Of a stretch of DNA of 37,868 bases, positions 25,365 to 34,761 are shown piece after piece. Position 1 is the first letter of the stretch. Every line of letters begins with the position of its first letter. Both the position numbers and the translations under genes were made by a program. Origin of the DNA: a virus; IMG/VR virus record IMGVR_UViG_3300046507_000885, positions 1-37,868 of that record; one strand, written 5' to 3'. A model generated the notes under the pieces. That model did not search any database and had not been told where the DNA came from. It worked only from the letters and a program-made list of their open reading frames with translations.

Positions 25365-26110
25365 GGCCTCACCCCGTTCTGCCATTCGGTATCGTCATCG
25401 TCGAAGTCGGATGCAGGCGCCTGCTTCGGCTTGAACTGCTTCACGTTCGATGCAGCGGCCCGGACCTTGTCGTTGTTGACCCACTTGACCAACATGCCCA
25501 CCCATTCAGCCTGGGTGTTGACCTGGTGCTGAGGCTCGTAGTGAGCAGTAAATGCAACGCGAACTTCCTCGGTGAACAGGTCCAGCGACAGCGCGCGGTG
25601 CAAGGCGTAGGTTTTCAGCAGTGTTTTATCCGGCACCCAGTCGAGGGTCATTTCGCTGGGCATGCGAGGATCGACACGATCCTGCGCAGAGAGAGGTTCT
25701 TTATTCTTCTCTACATCTTCTTTAGGTAACGCGCCGCTAACGTTCGCAGCGTTACTTTTTCCGTTGCTCGCCTTGTGATTCGCAACGCGCTTTGCCGTGA
25801 GAAGCCTGTTTTTAGCGGTCTTCCCGTTGTGACGGTCGAAATGCGGAAGACTGATCACACCGTCAAGTTCGATCATCCAAGCGACCGACTTCATGTGCTC
25901 GCAGAAGCCGATAAAGCCAACCAGGCGATCGAGTAACTTTTTGCTAACGCTCGGAGCGTTACCATTTTCTGTTTGCTGGTCGAACCAGCCCCACACGCGC
26001 ATCAGTTTGCCGACCACAGCATCAGGATCGATGTCGGCCAGGTCAGCAATTTGGCAAACCTCAGGTTTATCCAGAGTGGTGAGTTCGAATTTGATCCAGT
26101 CGCCGGCCAT
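25361..26110 (-). CDS. Replication initiator, O-like (DnaT-like ssDNA-binding C-terminus)
   Basis: 249 residues. An N-terminal winged-helix-like part (WIKFELTTLDKPEVCQIADLADIDPDAVVGKLMRVWGWFDQ) precedes a variable linker (about 113-145), and the C-terminus (MTLDWVPDKTLLKTYALHRALSLDLFTEEVRVAFTAHY...QAEWVGMLVKWVNND) is a DnaT-like ssDNA-binding domain (PF17948). It takes the place of lambda O, upstream of P. The palindromic repeats in its own gene are likely its binding sites and thus the phage origin. Confidence 0.85.
   Translation of the reverse strand: MAGDWIKFELTTLDKPEVCQIADLADIDPDAVVGKLMRVWGWFDQQTENGNAPSVSKKLLDRLVGFIGFCEHMKSVAWMIELDGVISLPHFDRHNGKTAKNRLLTAKRVANHKASNGKSNAANVSGALPKEDVEKNKEPLSAQDRVDPRMPSEMTLDWVPDKTLLKTYALHRALSLDLFTEEVRVAFTAHYEPQHQVNTQAEWVGMLVKWVNNDKVRAAASNVKQFKPKQAPASDFDDDDTEWQNGVRP
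25695..25961. other. Candidate replication origin inside the O-like gene
   Basis: Two 17-base palindromic elements, TAACGTTCGCAGCGTTA (25739-25755) and TAACGCTCGGAGCGTTA (25945-25961), differ at 2 of 17 positions and lie in the coding sequence for residues 49-56 and the linker. A further GTAACGC (25727) and an AT/pyrimidine-rich stretch (25695-25725) adjoin. This resembles lambda ori within O: palindromic iterons next to an AT-rich unwinding tract. Confidence 0.5.
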
Positions 26111-26814
26111 TACGCGGCCTCCTGCATGAGTTCAGCGAGGCGTGTAAGGCCTTTCGGGGTGACCATCGGGTCGAATGCAGCGCGCTCAATCCCGGTCTCT
26201 GGGTTCGGCTTCAATGCCGTGACCTTGTGAGTCATATGCCCGGAGGTGATGCGCGGCTGATAGGCAACCCAACGCTTGCACCCGTGGCGCCTGAATATCC
26301 AGCGATGCTGTTCAAGCCATGCAAACAGGCGCGCAGGTGCCAGCCCCAACTGCTTGGCGGCATCAGTGATGCAAATAGCGCCGCCAGCCGCTGCGAGTCG
26401 TTTAATAGCGGCTACCTTCGGCGCCTGGTCTGAAATCAGGCGCTGCAACTCATCGTTCTTGTCTGCCAGATCAGCGGCAAGACGGAGGGCTTCGGGAAGG
26501 GATTGCGGAATCGTGACAGCCTGTCGCGACACGTTTTCCAGTTCGCTCAAACGTGTCACGACACGATGACGAAGTGGAATGCTGTAGCCGGTCAACAGGG
26601 TTTCAGTCAGGACGCGGTCAAGGTGGAATTCAGCGGTGTAACCCCGCCCGTCTTTGGACTCCCGAAGATGGCGCAAATCTGCGCCATCGTCTGCCAGCGC
26701 CTTGCGCATCACACGGATGTCACGGATGACGTCCTTGTGCTGCTTGCCGGTGAGATCGGCGATCTCCCGGCTCGACATGGTGACCGTATTGCTTGGAGCG
26801 ACGATCGTGTTCAT
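26110..26814 (-). CDS. Rha family regulator with KilAC antirepressor domain
   Basis: 234 residues. N-terminal Rha part (TMSSREIADLTGKQHKDVIRDIRVMRKAL, TAEFHLDRVLTETLLTGYSIPLRHRVVTRLSELE) and C-terminal KilAC domain (ITDAAKQLGLAPARLFAWLEQHRWIFRRHGCKRWVAYQPRITSGHM). Such proteins act as antirepressors or regulators of early phage genes. It starts 5 bases after GTGGGG-rich sequence. It is placed between the CII-like gene and O. The stop overlaps O start. Confidence 0.9.
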   Translation of the reverse strand: MNTIVAPSNTVTMSSREIADLTGKQHKDVIRDIRVMRKALADDGADLRHLRESKDGRGYTAEFHLDRVLTETLLTGYSIPLRHRVVTRLSELENVSRQAVTIPQSLPEALRLAADLADKNDELQRLISDQAPKVAAIKRLAAAGGAICITDAAKQLGLAPARLFAWLEQHRWIFRRHGCKRWVAYQPRITSGHMTHKVTALKPNPETGIERAAFDPMVTPKGLTRLAELMQEAA

Positions 26815-26884: not shown

Positions 26885-27307
26885 TCAGGCAGCCTTTAGC
26901 GATTCGCGCAGGACCTGCAGCGCGTCGATTGCTTCAAGGATTGCTTTCTCGCCTTGGGCTTTTTCGTGCTGACTGATGTGGTTGTCCGCCGCAGCATCGA
27001 AAATCAATCGGCCAACGTCACCGCACTCGGCGGACAGCAGGCCCAATGCGGCCATCAACGGTTTGGCGGTCGGCTTCTCGCGCGCCACCAGGTCAAAGCC
27101 GAACTGATCAGCGAGCGCCATCAGCGGGCGCATGTCTTGTGTGTGCAGCAGCACGCCAAACAAATGTTCGATGGTCAGGTGATGCGCCGCGTTGTCCGGG
27201 TTCGATCGCTGGAGCAGGCTCACGTGCGCCATGCACATTTTCCCGGCCAGCTCTTCTGCCCCGCTTTCCTTGATGGTGGTGTGGCAAGCCCTCAAGAAAT
27301 CTTCCAT
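26885..27307 (-). CDS. CII-like regulatory protein (CP76 family)
   Basis: About 140 residues from the ATG at 27307 with GAGG 8 bases upstream. The pattern CHTTIKESGAEELAGKMCMAHVSLLQRSNPDNAAHHLTIEHLFGVLLHTQDMRPLMALADQFGFDLV is that of phage CII family regulators (PF06892). It stands where cII stands in lambda: second gene after cro. It probably helps choose lysogeny by acting on a promoter for cI or int; no target site was identified. Confidence 0.75.
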   Translation of the reverse strand: MEDFLRACHTTIKESGAEELAGKMCMAHVSLLQRSNPDNAAHHLTIEHLFGVLLHTQDMRPLMALADQFGFDLVAREKPTAKPLMAALGLLSAECGDVGRLIFDAAADNHISQHEKAQGEKAILEAIDALQVLRESLKAA

Positions 27308-27373
27308 TCGTAAAACCTCAATTTTGTTTCCGTGGATGCCCGACAGTGTCTGGGCGATCATTTGGTCAGCGGC

Positions 27374-27613
27374 TTAAGCAACTGATTTTTTGGGATGAGC
27401 TTCAGCGAGGAGCCAATCGGCTTCGAACGGCTTGCCTTTCGCAGCTGCTAATTCGGCAATTTTTTTTGCGTATTGGGTTTCGCCCGTGTACTCGGTGCGC
27501 GGCAGTGAACCCGCCACCAGCCATTTGTAAATAGCTCTCGGAGTTTTCCCGCAGGCCAAGGCCACGGCAGGGACGCCGCCAGCATCATCGATCGATTTCT
27601 TGAGCGGCCGCAT
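27374..27613 (-). CDS. cro: Cro-like repressor (YdaS family)
   Basis: 79 residues. KSIDDAGGVPAVALACGKTPRAIYKWLVAGSLPRTEYTGETQYAKKIAEL is a short helix-turn-helix of the YdaS/Cro family. It is the first gene leftward from the cI-cro control region, with GGAGG 4 bases upstream of its ATG. It should block the repressor promoter. Its start is within 20 bases of the first operator. Confidence 0.85.
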   Translation of the reverse strand: MRPLKKSIDDAGGVPAVALACGKTPRAIYKWLVAGSLPRTEYTGETQYAKKIAELAAAKGKPFEADWLLAEAHPKKSVA

Positions 27614-27630: not shown

Positions 27631-27649
27631 TATGAACTTGCGGTACATA
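27631..27649. promoter_or_regulatory. Repressor operator, site 1 (cI-cro)
   Basis: TATGAACTTGCGGTACATA, a 7+5+7 imperfect inverted repeat with core GAAC-N5-GTAC. It overlaps the expected start of the cro transcript. Confidence 0.75.
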
Positions 27650-27676
27650 TTATGTCGGAACTGAAAGTACATGCAA
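27649..27676 (-). promoter_or_regulatory. Leftward cro promoter
   Basis: Minus strand: TTGCAT (27676-27671), 16-base spacer, CATAAT (27654-27649). Operator site 2 fills the spacer, so bound repressor would block it. The -35 is weak. Confidence 0.55.
27655..27673. promoter_or_regulatory. Repressor operator, site 2 (cI-cro)
   Basis: TCGGAACTGAAAGTACATG, core GAAC-N5-GTAC; the left half is weaker than at site 1. Confidence 0.6.
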
Positions 27677-27687
27677 GGACATGCGAT

Positions 27688-27706
27688 GCTGAACCTATGG
27701 TTCACA
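27688..27706. promoter_or_regulatory. Repressor operator, site 3, overlapping cI start
   Basis: GCTGAACCTATGGTTCACA with core GAAC-N5-GTTC, which is perfectly palindromic. It covers the proposed cI start codon (27697), so it could mediate autoregulation. Confidence 0.6.
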
Positions 27707-28563
27707 TAGAAGATATTCGCGCTGCATTTGTCATCCGGCTGAAAAAAGCCTTAGCCGCCCATGGCATTGATCAATGGGGGGCCGGCGCTCGCCTCGCCGA
27801 AATAGCTAAAGTTACGCCAAAGGCATCGAGCAAATGGCTGAATGGTGAGTCCCTCCCCGGGCCTGCCAAGATGAGTGCCGTAGCTGATGCGCTAGGCGTG
27901 AAGATCGAATGGCTTCAGCATGGCGCTGGTGATGAACCCAGTTTTTCAAAACTCACCGAGATTGAAAAAGGCGCCACTGACGCCCCCGCGCTTTCGGCAG
28001 CAGAAGTAGTTCGGAGCATGCTCGCCACTCAAGGGAAACGCCTGTCCGAAGATGCGCGGAGGCGGCTGCTTGCTGCTGCGGAAGCCGACGAAAGTGGTGG
28101 CGTTATCGAGGTTGACTTCTACCGACCTGGCGCTGTGGGTGACGAGGTATGGATCGCGCATTATGACGTCCGCGCGGCGATGGGCGGCGGGCAGATCCCC
28201 CACGACTACCCCGAGATGTTTCAGGACGTGCGCGTCAGCCCCCAGCATTTGCGCGAGATGGGCGTTGAGTTCAAAGAGCACTTCCACCTGAAGATGGTGA
28301 CAGGCTGGGGACAATCGATGGCGCCGACGATAAAGCACCGCGACCCGTTGCTTGTCGACGTCAGCATTCGTGAATTCGTCGGCGATGGGATCTACATGTT
28401 CTCCTGGGAAGGCCATCTCTACATCAAGCGCCTTCAGTGGATCGGCGATGATCAGATCAAGATGCTTTCCGATAACGAAAGGCATCCGCCGCAGACGATC
28501 AGGGCCGATGAGACCTTCATCCAGGCTCGAGTGCTGCTGGTCTGGAATGCGAACCTGGTGTAG
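27697..28563 (+). CDS. cI: CI-type repressor with S24 peptidase domain
   Basis: About 288 residues from the ATG at 27697. An N-terminal helix-turn-helix (LAEIAKVTPKASSKWLNGESLPG) is followed by a linker and a LexA/CI-like S24 domain with Ser207 (GWGQSMAPTI) and Lys244 (YIKRL) as the expected catalytic pair. The usual Ala-Gly cleavage site is not obvious; AAMGGG at about 160-165 is a candidate. A longer frame from 27652 exists, but the likely promoter (TATTAT at 27648) would put that ATG upstream of the transcript start. It maintains lysogeny. Confidence 0.88.
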   Translation: MVHIEDIRAAFVIRLKKALAAHGIDQWGAGARLAEIAKVTPKASSKWLNGESLPGPAKMSAVADALGVKIEWLQHGAGDEPSFSKLTEIEKGATDAPALSAAEVVRSMLATQGKRLSEDARRRLLAAAEADESGGVIEVDFYRPGAVGDEVWIAHYDVRAAMGGGQIPHDYPEMFQDVRVSPQHLREMGVEFKEHFHLKMVTGWGQSMAPTIKHRDPLLVDVSIREFVGDGIYMFSWEGHLYIKRLQWIGDDQIKMLSDNERHPPQTIRADETFIQARVLLVWNANLV

Positions 28564-28597
28564 CTGGATTGTGGCCTGAGTATCAGAAGTTCTGAAA

Positions 28598-28801
28598 ATG
28601 CCGAAGAAAAAGCCGGAAAGTCAGGCTGCGGTGACCGCCGCTGAGATAGAGCGCTCTATCCAAGCCTTGAATAAAATGGCTGAGCGTCTGTGGGGTGATG
28701 GCCGAGAATCTGAGGCGAAAGCCCTCCTCGATGCCTTAGACGCATTAAACCGGGCGCTGGACCGGATCAGGATCGGAGAGAGCCGCAGGGTTCTCCATTG
28801 A
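28598..28801 (+). CDS. Small helical hypothetical protein downstream of cI
   Basis: 67 residues, strongly helical and charged: AAVTAAEIERSIQALNKMAERLWGDGRESEAKALLDALDALNRALDRIRIGE. No recognised domain. It follows cI by 35 bases on the same strand, so it is probably expressed in the lysogen. The ribosome site (AGAAG) is weak. Confidence 0.6.
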   Translation: MPKKKPESQAAVTAAEIERSIQALNKMAERLWGDGRESEAKALLDALDALNRALDRIRIGESRRVLH

Positions 28802-28854
28802 AACGTACACATCCGGGCTGAAGACTGGGTGTAAAAAAGCGGGGCTGGTGGCCG

Positions 28855-29019
28855 ATGGGGCTGTTCGAATTTTTATCCGACCTACTCAGTGGTCTTGCTA
28901 ATCTCCAGCCTTACGAAAAGCCTCGCAGGGTCTTCACGCGCGGCTTTGTTGCATTCTGTGTGCTGGTGGCCGTGCTTGAGCTGATGACGCTGAACCAAAT
29001 CTATAATGGCCACGGGTGA
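28855..29019 (+). CDS. Small membrane protein in the repressor operon
   Basis: 54 residues, below usual ORF thresholds. MGLFEFLSDLLSGLANLQPYE-KPRRVFTRG is followed by a single hydrophobic segment (FVAFCVLVAVLELMTL, about 31-46) and a short tail. Positive charges before the segment suggest a cytoplasmic N-terminus. It would be expressed with cI in the lysogen, where small membrane proteins sometimes block superinfection; this role is inferred. The ribosome site is weak. Confidence 0.5.
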   Translation: MGLFEFLSDLLSGLANLQPYEKPRRVFTRGFVAFCVLVAVLELMTLNQIYNGHG

Positions 29020-29204
29020 AGGATGCTTGGCGTCTGTATAGGAATGAAGTGACGGCGGGAAGGATTGTGCGGGGGAAGGTTGAGTAGGTGGTTGGCCTGG
29101 TCGTTCTGTTCCGTAATTTCGCTTTCCGCGTCGGCGTGCCCGAAGGGTACTCATCCAACAGGCGGGACAGGATCGCACCATAAGGGTGGAACCTGCTCCT
29201 GAGC

Positions 29205-29229
29205 AAAGCCCGGCCCAGCGCCGGGCTTT
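29205..29229. terminator. Bidirectional terminator after the repressor genes
   Basis: Perfect 10-bp stem AAAGCCCGGC/GCCGGGCTTT with a 5-base loop. Confidence 0.75.
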
Positions 29230-29306
29230 GCGTTTCCGACTTGCATTTCGAAAGGCACCATCTACGCTAATTTCAGCTGATGGATCAGCGCCCAGTGAGA
29301 AAAGCA

Positions 29307-29329
29307 GCCTGCCTCGTGCGGGCTTTTTT
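29307..29329 (+). terminator. Rightward intrinsic terminator
   Basis: GCCTGC-CTCGT-GCGGGC (one T-G pair) followed by TTTTTT, ending just before the DUF1654 stop codon; it stops transcription from the cI side. Confidence 0.8.
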
Positions 29330-29336
29330 ACGCCCA

Positions 29337-29654
29337 TCAGAAAGGCGCGACCTCCTCCACTTCAAGTGCGTCCTTCACTTCGACCACACGATCGTCTTCA
29401 TCACTCGCCTCCCACTTCAGCGTTACCGACTCATCATCGTTGAACGTCATGTCTGTGCCGTCCGTCTCGGATAGCAAGCCCAGCACCTCCTCCCACTCCC
29501 GATCGCCGTCCGTGTCAAGCCGATGGATCGTCACCCAGCGCTGAATCTGCGCTACGGGGTGGTTGATCATCGATGAGACGCGCAGCCCGAGCCTTTCAAT
29601 CCCGCTCATTTCATGTCGTTGTGCCGGTTTTGACGGCTTACTCGCGTTGGCCAT
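29337..29654 (-). CDS. DUF1654 family protein, probably SOS-induced
   Basis: 105 residues from the ATG at 29654, with a G8 tract and TGGA just upstream. MSGIERLGLRVSSMINHPVAQIQRWVTIHRLDTDGDREWEEVLGLLSETDGTDMTFNDDESVTLKW is the DUF1654 pattern found almost only in Pseudomonas and its phages. The C-terminus is acidic. Function is unknown. A near-consensus LexA box lies on its promoter, so it is likely to be induced by DNA damage. Confidence 0.85.
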   Translation of the reverse strand: MANASKPSKPAQRHEMSGIERLGLRVSSMINHPVAQIQRWVTIHRLDTDGDREWEEVLGLLSETDGTDMTFNDDESVTLKWEASDEDDRVVEVKDALEVEEVAPF

Positions 29655-29671
29655 TCCACCCCCCCCAATAG

Positions 29672-29687
29672 CTGTATATATATCCAG
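29672..29687. promoter_or_regulatory. LexA (SOS) box at the DUF1654 promoter
   Basis: CTGTATATATATCCAG matches CTG-TATATATA-CAG except for one base (consensus ACAG, here CCAG on the plus strand). It covers the predicted transcription start of the DUF1654 gene. Confidence 0.75.
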
Positions 29688-29696
29688 TATTGGCGA

Positions 29697-29725
29697 ACTA
29701 TAGCGAAGCAATCCCCGGCGGTAAA
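29697..29725 (-). promoter_or_regulatory. Promoter of the DUF1654 gene
   Basis: Minus strand: TTTACC (29725-29720), 17-base spacer, TATAGT (29702-29697). Start would fall near 29690. Confidence 0.65.
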
Positions 29726-29778
29726 TCCTAAAAGCATCACGCCAGAAACTTTGATCGATTGTGTACCTTCATCAAAAA

Positions 29779-29797
29779 TATGTACTTTTGGTACTTG
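29779..29797. promoter_or_regulatory. Repressor operator at the rightward promoter, site A
   Basis: TATGTACTTTTGGTACTTG, core GTAC-N5-GTAC, left half identical to the cI-cro half sites. It overlaps the -35. Confidence 0.75.
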
Positions 29798-29824
29798 ACC
29801 AAATATGAACATGTGGTTCATATT
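29795..29824 (+). promoter_or_regulatory. Rightward early promoter (PL-like)
   Basis: TTGACC (29795-29800), 17-18 base spacer, then TCATAT or CATATT (29818-29824). Operator site B fills the spacer. It would drive genes from 30.4 kb on toward excisionase and integrase. Confidence 0.7.
29804..29822. promoter_or_regulatory. Repressor operator at the rightward promoter, site B
   Basis: TATGAACATGTGGTTCATA, a perfect 7-bp inverted repeat with a 5-base centre; the best copy of the operator in the window. Confidence 0.8.
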
Positions 29825-29862: not shown

Positions 29863-29874
29863 CGCTCTTTAACA
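29863..29874 (+). promoter_or_regulatory. boxA antitermination element (nut-like)
   Basis: CGCTCTTTAACA is identical to the core of rRNA-operon boxA and close to lambda boxA. It lies about 40 bases after the predicted start of the rightward transcript and on its strand. A short ATCT/GGAT hairpin follows. Confidence 0.7.
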
Positions 29875-30246
29875 GTCAGGAATCTTCGCGGATCGATCCC
29901 CGGCAACGGGCACAGCGCGAAACACAAATTTCGATCCCCATGCCAGCTCTGGAACTGGCCGGGCTCCCCAATGAGAGCACGCGAAGTTGCACAGCCACCC
30001 GATGTGACGCCAGTTGCGGCATCGGGCAGAGAGAGGACTCCGGCGAACGTGCAGCGAGATTTGGCCAGCATCACTTCTGCACCTTGGCGACAGGGTGCAG
30101 CGGGATGCGGACGAAACCCCGGCTTATACCGTCCACCTGCATGCAACAAACCAGAGAACGGCGAGCGCCCGCCAAGATGCCAACGGCGCGCATTGGAGGA
30201 TGACCATCATGAAATAGACCAAACCCAAAAGATCACTGCATCTGTG
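29875..30246 (+). other. Untranslated leader of the rightward early transcript
   Basis: About 370 bases with no convincing ORF; the open frames lack codon bias and one would run through the terminator. It is GC-rich and probably structured. Near its end GGAGG precedes an ATG ACC ATC ATG AAA TAG mini-frame (30200-30217). Confidence 0.5.
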
Positions 30247-30279
30247 AAAGGCCCCGAACGTCCAACGGGCCTTTCTTTT
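30247..30279 (+). terminator. Intrinsic terminator in the early leader
   Basis: AAAGGCCC, 12-base loop, GGGCCTTT (perfect 8-bp stem), then CTTTT. It lies between the rightward promoter and its first gene, so genes beyond need read-through. Confidence 0.8.
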
Positions 30280-30380: not shown

Positions 30381-30671
30381 ATGCAAATGCATCCATCCAT
30401 GCAAGCGCGCGTCGAAGGCAACATTGCCCTGCACATCCGCGCAACGGCGGCCACCGCCGAGTTCTACTCAATGATCGGCAAGGACGCACCGGCAAGCGCG
30501 GTTCGCTTTCAGGTCGTCACCAAGGGCGAGAACGCCTATCACGTCATTGAGCGGTCAACCGGCAAGGTGAAGGGGTTCCGCTTCTCCTGGCGGGCGGCGA
30601 TCAACCTGGCACAGGTGCTGGAAGCGCGGGCCGACGGCGTGAAGGTGAACATCGAGGGTTGGGACAAATGA
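30381..30671 (+). CDS. Hypothetical early protein
   Basis: 96 residues. A helical N-terminus (MQARVEGNIALHIRATAATAEFYSMIG) and VRFQVVTKGENAYHVIERSTGKVKGFRFSWRAAINLAQVLEAR form a small alpha/beta domain. I do not recognise its function; similar proteins occur in Pseudomonas phages. ATG with GAGGGA upstream. First gene of the rightward early operon. Confidence 0.7.
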   Translation: MQMHPSMQARVEGNIALHIRATAATAEFYSMIGKDAPASAVRFQVVTKGENAYHVIERSTGKVKGFRFSWRAAINLAQVLEARADGVKVNIEGWDK

Positions 30672-31749: not shown

Positions 31750-32477
31750 CTATGGGGCCGGGAGTTGTATAATCACATCCAAATTCTTAAAAATCGCTTT
31801 CGCTCTCTCTGGAATTATGTAAGTACCAATAAGAATGTGCTCAATAACTTCAAGTGCCAAGAGAAGCTGATCCTTAGAATGGGCTTTTGCTTTATGAGCG
31901 GCTCGGTTGCCGAGAAGGCGTATTTTATGAAGTGTTTCAACACCTTCTTTTGTTACCAATGATCTCTCATGGAGATCATTAATCTTCAGCTCTAAGTTCC
32001 GCCCTTTAGCTTTGACATCCGAGCAGATTGACTCGAGCAATGCTCTGATCGCTATCCCTCCGATTATAAAAAGCTCATTTTCGACGGCTGTGCGAGCTTC
32101 TTTATATATTTGCCCTATGCCCCAAGGCAGCAACCAGTGATCGATGACCTTTGAGCCGGGAACTCGACCAGGGTAGTAGGTAATCGTTTGATTGTGATAC
32201 TGAGTATTTGTCTCGTCATCAAAGTCGTAGTCCTCGGAATTTGTAGAGCACACTCGAAACGAAATTTCCTCACACCCTAAACACTGAATTATTTGGTGTC
32301 TTCATACCAGTCGACGGAGTGTCCGCCACCGCAGTCTTCCGACCCTTTCTCTTCTAGACAGGCAACAACTTTGTGTTTTGTCTCAAGGCTACATTTCTTA
32401 CAAGGAAACTTTTGATCGTTATCGGTTGCTACGGTTAATTTGAAAATTTTTGTTATCTGTCCCATGCCCGCATCCAT
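31750..32477 (-). pseudogene. DUF4145 protein gene broken by a 1-base frameshift
   Basis: Two frames make one protein. The upstream part (to 32289) has CKKC and ends YEDTK-stop; the downstream part continues in the other frame with IIQCLGCEEISFRVCS, then GIGQIYKEARTAVENELFIIGGIAIRALLESICSD...NRAAH. Adding one A in the AAA at about 32291 joins them in frame and restores a CxxC...CxxC zinc ribbon followed by the DUF4145 domain (PF13643). About 240 residues if repaired. DUF4145 also occurs at the front of some type I restriction subunits. It is AT-rich and on the strand opposite to the early operon. Sequencing error is not excluded. Confidence 0.75.
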
Positions 32478-32542
32478 CGAAACAATTTGACCCTCACAAA
32501 TACCCCACTTCAACGAATCACGCCAGCCGGCGAGGATCCCCT

Positions 32543-33466
32543 ATGTTCACAGCAATTGATTTGTTCTCCGGTTTTGGCGGATGGACCCGAGGCGGTGTTG
32601 ATGCCGGACTGAAGGTACTCTGGGCCGCAAACCACTGGCCAGCCGCTGTTGAGTGGCACACAAAGAACAACCCAAATACGGAGCACGTCTGCCAGGACTT
32701 GCACCAGGCGGACTGGTCGAAGGTGCCCAAGCATGACGTTATGCTGGCCTCGCCCTGCTGCCAAGGACATACCAAGGCACGCGGCAAGGCATCGGGAAAT
32801 CCACAGCACGACAACTCACGATCGACAGCCTGGGCGCCGGTGGCGAATGCCGAGGTGAATCGGCCAGACTTCGCGGTGATCGAAAACGTTCCGGAGTTCA
32901 TGGACTGGATTTTGTACCCAGCGTGGGCAGATGCGATGCAGCGCTTGGGTTACGCACTGGCCCCGCACATCGTGGACTGCGCCGACCTCGGCGTCCCGCA
33001 GCACCGCGTGCGCCTGTTCATGGTCTGCTCGCGCAGCAAGGCGCCGCTTCACTTGCAGTTACCGCGATACCGGCACATTCCCGCGAGCCAGATCATCGAC
33101 TTCGATGCCGGCAAGTGGTCGCCTATCAATAAGCCAGGCCGCGCCGCGTCGACCCTGACCCGCGTAAAGAATGGACGCGAGCGATTCGGCGAGCGGTTCG
33201 TGATGCCCTACTACGGTTCAGGATCAGGACTCACCGGCCGCAGTCTGGATCGACCGATAGGCACCATTACAACGCTGGACCGCTGGGCAGTTGTTGACGG
33301 TGACCAGATGCGCATGATCACCGCCGACGAGGCCATGGCTGCGCAGTCCTTCCCGGCCGACACCCTGAGACCAGACAATCACCGGCTCACCATGCACATG
33401 ACTGGAAACGCGGTACCACCGCTGGCCGGACAACAAATCCTCGAAGCTCTGAACGCAGCTGCGTAA
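32543..33466 (+). CDS. DNA cytosine-5 methyltransferase (orphan)
   Basis: About 307 residues from the ATG at 32543 with GAGGA 6 bases upstream. Motif I DLFSGFGG (6-13), motif IV SPCCQGH with Cys72 or Cys73 as the nucleophile, motif VI IENV (113-116), motif VIII QHRVR (153-157) and motif X-like GNAVPP near the C-terminus are all present. The target-recognition region is about residues 165-280. No restriction enzyme is nearby, so it probably shields phage DNA from host enzymes. Recognition sequence unknown. Confidence 0.92.
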   Translation: MFTAIDLFSGFGGWTRGGVDAGLKVLWAANHWPAAVEWHTKNNPNTEHVCQDLHQADWSKVPKHDVMLASPCCQGHTKARGKASGNPQHDNSRSTAWAPVANAEVNRPDFAVIENVPEFMDWILYPAWADAMQRLGYALAPHIVDCADLGVPQHRVRLFMVCSRSKAPLHLQLPRYRHIPASQIIDFDAGKWSPINKPGRAASTLTRVKNGRERFGERFVMPYYGSGSGLTGRSLDRPIGTITTLDRWAVVDGDQMRMITADEAMAAQSFPADTLRPDNHRLTMHMTGNAVPPLAGQQILEALNAAA

Positions 33467-34173: not shown

Positions 34174-34761
34174 ATGTCCCAACTAATCTGGCGCCTAGTC
34201 GCCAAGCTATTCGCCCGCCAGGCCGTTGCCGCCTGGCTAATCGCCCGCGCCCAGCGCACGCCTTACCTGCACATCATGTCCGCCGACGGCGCCGATATGT
34301 ACATGGGCCGCTGGTGGCTGTTCAACCCCTACTCCCGCACCACGCACAAACCCGCTCTCTGGTGGTTCCCGTGGTCGTTCCGCATCCACCACATCATGCG
34401 GCCGGACGAAGACCGGGATCTGCATGACCACCCATGGAATGCCCGGACCATCATCCTTCGCGGCTGGTACACGGAGCAGCGGCCCGCGAGCGATGAATGG
34501 AAGAAGGCGGTTAGGTCGGGGCTGGTCCCGAATCCCGATCCAAAGTTTGTCGACTGGATCATGCGTGACGCCTGCGAGTGGATCAGGCGCGACCAAGGCG
34601 ACACCGCCAGCCTCAACCACGGCGAATACCACCGGATCGACGAGGTATCGCCCGGCGGCGTCATCACCCTTTTCATCACCAGCAAATGGCGTGGTGATTG
34701 GGGCTTTCTGGTCAACGGCGTCAAGGTCCCTTGGCGCACCTACACGGGTACGGACAATTGA
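34174..34761 (+). CDS. Cupin-like phage protein of unknown function
   Basis: 195 residues. An N-terminal hydrophobic stretch (IWRLVAKLFARQAVAAWLIARA) precedes a beta-rich body with HDHPWNARTIILRGWYTEQ and later NHGEYHRIDEVSPGGVITLFITSKWRGDWGF. The HxH-x(n)-E/H pattern resembles the metal site of cupins. Similar proteins occur in many phages of Gram-negative bacteria. ATG with GAGG upstream. Function unknown. Confidence 0.75.
   Translation: MSQLIWRLVAKLFARQAVAAWLIARAQRTPYLHIMSADGADMYMGRWWLFNPYSRTTHKPALWWFPWSFRIHHIMRPDEDRDLHDHPWNARTIILRGWYTEQRPASDEWKKAVRSGLVPNPDPKFVDWIMRDACEWIRRDQGDTASLNHGEYHRIDEVSPGGVITLFITSKWRGDWGFLVNGVKVPWRTYTGTDN

Follow-up and report, generated by a model that had tools for sequence, protein, structure and literature searches.

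Predicted CI operators at two divergent early promoters suggest a lambda-type bipartite immunity region in a family of Pseudomonas phages

Five copies of one 19-base element with the core GWAC-N5-GTWC lie on the two sides of a repressor gene in a viral record of 37,868 bases (hereafter the window) from a temperate Pseudomonas phage, and the question that they raise is which protein, if any, they serve. The window contains seven matches to the core, where dinucleotide shuffles lead one to expect 1.26, and none of 100 shuffles reached seven. Five of the seven matches make up two tight groups, with core starts at 27634, 27658 and 27691 and at 29782 and 29807, and the remaining two (759 and 24106) are isolated. 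The motif search thus recovered all five coordinates of an earlier note on this DNA, and the shuffles together with the genome counts described below led us to reject a chance origin. We suggest, with a probability of about 0.9, that the five sites are predicted operators of the phage's own CI, and probably also of Cro, in a lambda-type bipartite immunity system. The evidence behind this reading is the positions of the sites, their conservation, their overlap with promoter-like sequences and the co-segregation of the motif with the DNA-binding domain (DBD) of the repressor; from these we infer binding, cooperativity, use by Cro and looping.

Three sites form the OR group. OR1 (27631-27649, TATGAACTTGCGGTACATA; consensus TaTGAACTtnCaGTACATA from 61 unique relatives) covers the start of the leftward transcript from the predicted cro promoter pR, and OR2 (27655-27673, TCGGAACTGAAAGTACATG) occupies the spacer of that promoter. 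pR lies on the minus strand at 27649-27676, with a -35 hexamer TTGCAT (27676-27671), 16 nt, and a -10 hexamer CATAAT (27654-27649), and both hexamers are kept in 55 of 61 unique relatives. OR3 (27688-27706, GCTGAACCTATGGTTCACA) is centred on the probable start codon of cI. In the OL group, OL1 (29779-29797, TATGTACTTTTGGTACTTG) overlaps the -35 hexamer of a rightward pL-equivalent at 29795-29824 on the plus strand, and OL2 (29804-29822, TATGAACATGTGGTTCATA) occupies its spacer; this promoter reads TTGACC (29795-29800), 18 nt, CATATT (29819-29824), and TTGAC[CTG] with CATATT is present in 45 of 48 unique relatives. OL2 is identical to its reverse complement in 14 of its 19 positions, and its single near copy in the window is OR1; OR2 and OL1 are the less symmetric copies. 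The placement of the best copy inside a TTGACC promoter and of another inside the cro promoter, as the earlier note had it, therefore holds, and the two control regions that it placed about 2.1 kb apart are separated by 2149 bp from the centre of OR2 to that of OL2. Divergent predicted early promoters thus flank the repressor gene, as in a lambda-type region.

The repressor gene cI (27697-28563, plus strand) encodes a protein in which Pfam HTH_3 and Peptidase_S24 both score above cut-off, that is, an HTH/S24 repressor; a PDB sequence search returned no related solved structure. Its reading frame is open from 27652, and we prefer the start at 27697 because all 67 unique anchored relatives have an ATG in the middle of OR3 and because the frame of one relative, L048, is interrupted by a stop codon between the positions that correspond to the ATGs at 27652 and 27697. 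A candidate pRM (27661-27690, plus strand; CTGAAA at 27661-27666, 18 nt, GATGCT at 27685-27690), proposed from sequence and conservation, would yield a leaderless cI mRNA, as is the case in lambda. OR2 covers the -35 of this candidate, so that an activation of pRM from OR2 in the style of lambda is not obvious.

Leftward from OR follow a cro-like gene (27374-27613, minus strand; phrog_35, with a weak YdaS match), a CII-like regulator in the pR operon (26885-27361, minus strand; PF06892), an antirepressor, O-like and P-like replication genes, an integrase and a Q-like gene, and the order of CI, Cro, CII, replication genes and, further on, a Q-like gene is that of lambda. The antirepressor (26110-26814) carries Rha and KilAC domains and adjoins a CII of the CP76 type. 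Rightward from OR lies cI, and past the leftward-read DUF1654 gene (29337-29654, minus strand; PF07867, the ORF call reaching 29711 with a TTG and the ATG at 29654 being preferred) the second promoter-like sequence points right. In the rightward early region we also observed a DNA methyltransferase (32450-33466) and a protein (34174-34761) whose PHROG match bears the name cysteine dioxygenase. The OR-OL interval holds cI, two small ORFs and DUF1654; the earlier note had placed repressor genes and DUF1654 inside it, which stands for cI and DUF1654 and fails for cro, which lies outside.

In a lysogen, we propose that CI dimers on OR1 and OR2 would shut the leftward lytic promoter pR and with it cro, CII, the antirepressor and replication, that CI on OL1 and OL2 would shut the rightward early promoter pL, and that CI or Cro could turn off transcription of cI by binding to OR3, which is centred on the probable cI start codon. 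That CI would shut both early promoters is suggested by the position of the sites and by their co-segregation with the repressor.

To follow the sites through related phages, 214 loci were collected by cI and DUF1654, and the comparison spans about 150 related phages. The conservation set comprises 57 unique loci, all selected through the OR2 core, in which CI has the DBD of the window repressor and the OL zone can be read. The three OR sites are present in all 57, at positions -24, 0 and +33 counted from OR2. Two or more OL sites are present in 55 (exactly two in 54, three in one), one locus has a single OL site and one has none; the offsets are nearly fixed in both groups, and the background density is 0.071 sites per kb. 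The OR2 core GAACTGAAAGTAC is identical in 67 unique relatives, an invariance that is partly selection since these loci were chosen by that anchor; two loci without this core (L029 and L030) still have OR1 and OR3 together with two OL sites. Each of the two promoters is thus predicted to carry several operators of a single family.

Such conservation might in principle reflect DNA homology alone rather than protein binding, the more so as OR2 and half of OR3 lie within the open frame upstream of the preferred cI start. The OL sites, however, are kept although the surrounding non-coding DNA is poorly conserved, and a repressor with another DBD comes with another OL motif beside the same DUF1654 gene; we consider homology alone extremely unlikely. 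This second line of evidence is quantitative: two OL sites of the window motif are found in 57 of 59 unique loci with the same DBD versus none of 87 unique loci in which the C-terminus of CI is homologous to that of the window and the DBD is another. Among the latter we distinguish no fewer than seven additional DBD classes. Each has a palindrome of its own, present at OR as well as at OL and made up of the half site and spacer given here and then the complement of the half site: TAACC-N3 in class A, TAGGC-N3 in B, TTTAG-N4 in C, CAAGC-N2 in D, AACAC-N5 in E, TWACC-N3 in F and TTAGCT-N3 in G; an eighth further class consists of two loci. Since the loci in which we counted these motifs are also those that yielded them, we used controls in which the OR of one class is paired with the OL of other classes. 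In W, A, B, C, D, E and G the observed score is above the highest of 200 such mixed-class controls, whereas in F it is not; class G against class B alone is close (4.0 against 4.29), and classes A and F share the core AACC-N3-GGTT, so that the cross-class control does not separate them.

Two further observations bear on the class code. The public phages VW-6S and SC_8_H2H8_2017, which are outside the derivation set, show the class B motif at OR and at OL, each time with one mismatch, and SC_8_H2H8_2017 has three further matches to it elsewhere. One locus (L216) carries the window DBD on a different lambda-like C-terminus (QAGM) with no DUF1654 match; its three OR sites and its two OL sites are nevertheless present, separated by 0.83 kb. 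Operator specificity thus appears to track the repressor DBD, and because the motif changes at both ends together with that domain, it is almost certainly the operator of the repressor. The sites keep nearly constant places in relatives with the same DBD, and where the DBD is another they are absent from OL and a different motif common to OR and OL takes their place, which supports the lambda-like OR/OL pair of the earlier note.

The Cro and CI DBDs are inherited together in these loci, and the comparison therefore cannot separate a CI operator from sites that serve mainly Cro, with CI using another sequence. We regard this arrangement as very unlikely: CI and Cro of lambdoid phages bind the same operators, and no other shared motif reached such a score in the loci with the same DBD. 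Sites used by CI and probably also by Cro remain our preferred interpretation.

A count of the motif in host genomes gives a further view of its specificity. Strict 19-mer matches are found in 10 of 299 Pseudomonas genomes, and nine of them lie at a cro-cI boundary, that is, in this immunity region; the outcome that would have spoken against phage operators, a motif equally common across unrelated genomes, did not occur. The nine comprise G001, already in our collection as L163, and eight of nine fetched regions, the ninth (L221) being a stray match. In seven of the eight fetched boundary regions an OL group is found at a distance of 2.3 to 6.4 kb; L222, one of the seven, has no match to OL1, and the short contig of L220 shows no OL group. 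These loci are not all independent of the collection (L222 resembles L051, and L220 pairs with L170); three (L223, L226 and L227) combine divergent repressors (39-41% identity) with the same sites. The same counts decide on a host regulator such as LexA as the reader of the sites. Some LexA boxes have half sites like GAAC/GTTC, which the window half sites resemble, at a spacing that differs; the motif, however, accompanies the DBD of the phage repressor, and outside this immunity region host genomes contain it hardly at all; we rejected a host regulator on the genome counts, giving it next to no credence. The phage repressor is thus the protein that we assign to the sites.

If CI occupies both groups, CI at OR and CI at OL would probably meet and loop out 2.15 kb with cI, the two small ORFs and DUF1654. 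The repressors of lambda, HK022 and phiKO2, all three that were tested by loopometer in one study, loop OL-OR over natural spacings of 0.63-2.3 kb, and in lambda such looping is possible even over 20 kb (PMC8053113); at least two sites at each end is also an arrangement that supports looping. Alternatively, CI might bind OR and OL independently without a loop, the common motif merely coordinating two promoters. All sequence evidence is equally compatible with independent binding and the OR-OL spacing varies more than sevenfold, and we see it as possible, at well short of even odds. Across 86 measured loci the distance is 1416-5870 bp, and L216 (0.83 kb) and L227 (6.4 kb) mark the extremes; this spread of 0.8-6.4 kb neither supports nor excludes looping. 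By analogy with the three repressors, we find CI-mediated looping plausible here.

The interval between cI and DUF1654 (28564-29336 in the window) is a cargo site in its own right, spanning 0.05-5 kb and 114 ORF clusters among the window and its relatives, with matches to the candidate defence models PDC-S42, PDC-M24B and PDC-M66A/B and to an ImmA/IrrE-type protein. DUF1654 is preceded by a promoter-like sequence on the minus strand (29697-29725; TTTACC-17-TATAGT), and of 57 unique relatives, 32 have a third OL copy in this promoter zone, 87-102 bp before OL2. CI would probably also repress DUF1654 in phages with this third site, which is absent from the DUF1654 promoter zone of the window. 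A broader proposal, which we put forward tentatively and hold to be rather unlikely as a whole, is that the OR-OL interval is a cargo island of 0.05-5 kb inside the CI loop, often with candidate defence genes, that the third OL site places DUF1654 under CI in about half of this immunity class, and that in the window phage, having no third site, DUF1654 would escape repression in the lysogen.

Downstream of pL, the leader contains a boxA-like sequence, GCTCTTTAACA (29863-29874, plus strand), and, ahead of the first pL gene at 30381, a terminator-like element (30246-30275, plus strand) in which TTTT comes after a 9-bp stem; GCTCTTTA is present in 163 of 188 relatives across immunity classes. These features may point to Nus-type antitermination. 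A strict terminator scan found a terminator in just 15 of 181 loci, and the search for antitermination features identified no N gene and no boxA on the pR side. An Rfam search gave nothing in the window, and as the pL leader of the window folds no better than its shuffles (z -0.20) we claim no structured RNA there. In early leaders of related phages, outside the window, we observed a conserved three-hairpin RNA (L049:7433-7549, L121:4784-4900, L216:6883-6999 and many viral contigs). At least 120 viral stretches contain an exact 33-base pattern of this RNA; in 65 sequences, 5 of 20 predicted pairs show compensatory changes, and an Rfam search of five loci gave no family. Possibly, this element is a cis-acting antitermination RNA like put of HK022.

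Among known systems, lambda shares with the window the divergent early promoters around cI, one operator family at both and a similar spacing (2.3 kb in lambda versus 2.15 kb here; PMC8053113); it differs in that the window has the motif GWAC-N5-GTWC, two OL sites instead of three, OR centre spacings of 24 and 33 bp, and DUF1654 and other genes in place of rex. HK022 and phiKO2 likewise have bipartite operators around the repressor gene, with looping shown for those repressors (PMC8053113), at OL/OR spacings of about 0.7 and 0.63 kb and in other hosts. In the GenBank record of Pseudomonas phage D3, three 14-bp sequences at intervals of 24 bp between cI and cro are annotated as putative operators, and a fourth near copy with two mismatches lies about 1 kb away beyond cI; the operator sequence is a different one, ATGAGTATTCCCAT, no DUF1654 is annotated, and D3 cI is not among the listed relatives of the window repressor. 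The closest public Pseudomonas phages by this region are VW-6S, which has the gene order of the window, and SC_8_H2H8_2017; both have a homologous C-terminal part of CI, and they differ in their class B DBD and an operator like TAGGC-N3-GCCTA. The immunity region of P. aeruginosa phage YA3 has been called lambda-like (PMC7326022), and with the putative operators of D3 this indicates that the kind of system is already known. The operator sequences and the class code were not found in openly accessible papers, a set that misses most journals, nor were operator sequences found in the open literature on DUF1654 and Pseudomonas phage operators; we make no claim that they are unpublished.

In total, the comparison provides predicted operators for roughly eight immunity classes among lambda-like prophages of Pseudomonas. 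These operators are readable from sequence and would thereby predict which prophages are homoimmune. A family that varies in DBD, operators, loop length and cargo would moreover constitute a natural test set for whether looping tolerates distances from 0.8 to 6.4 kb.
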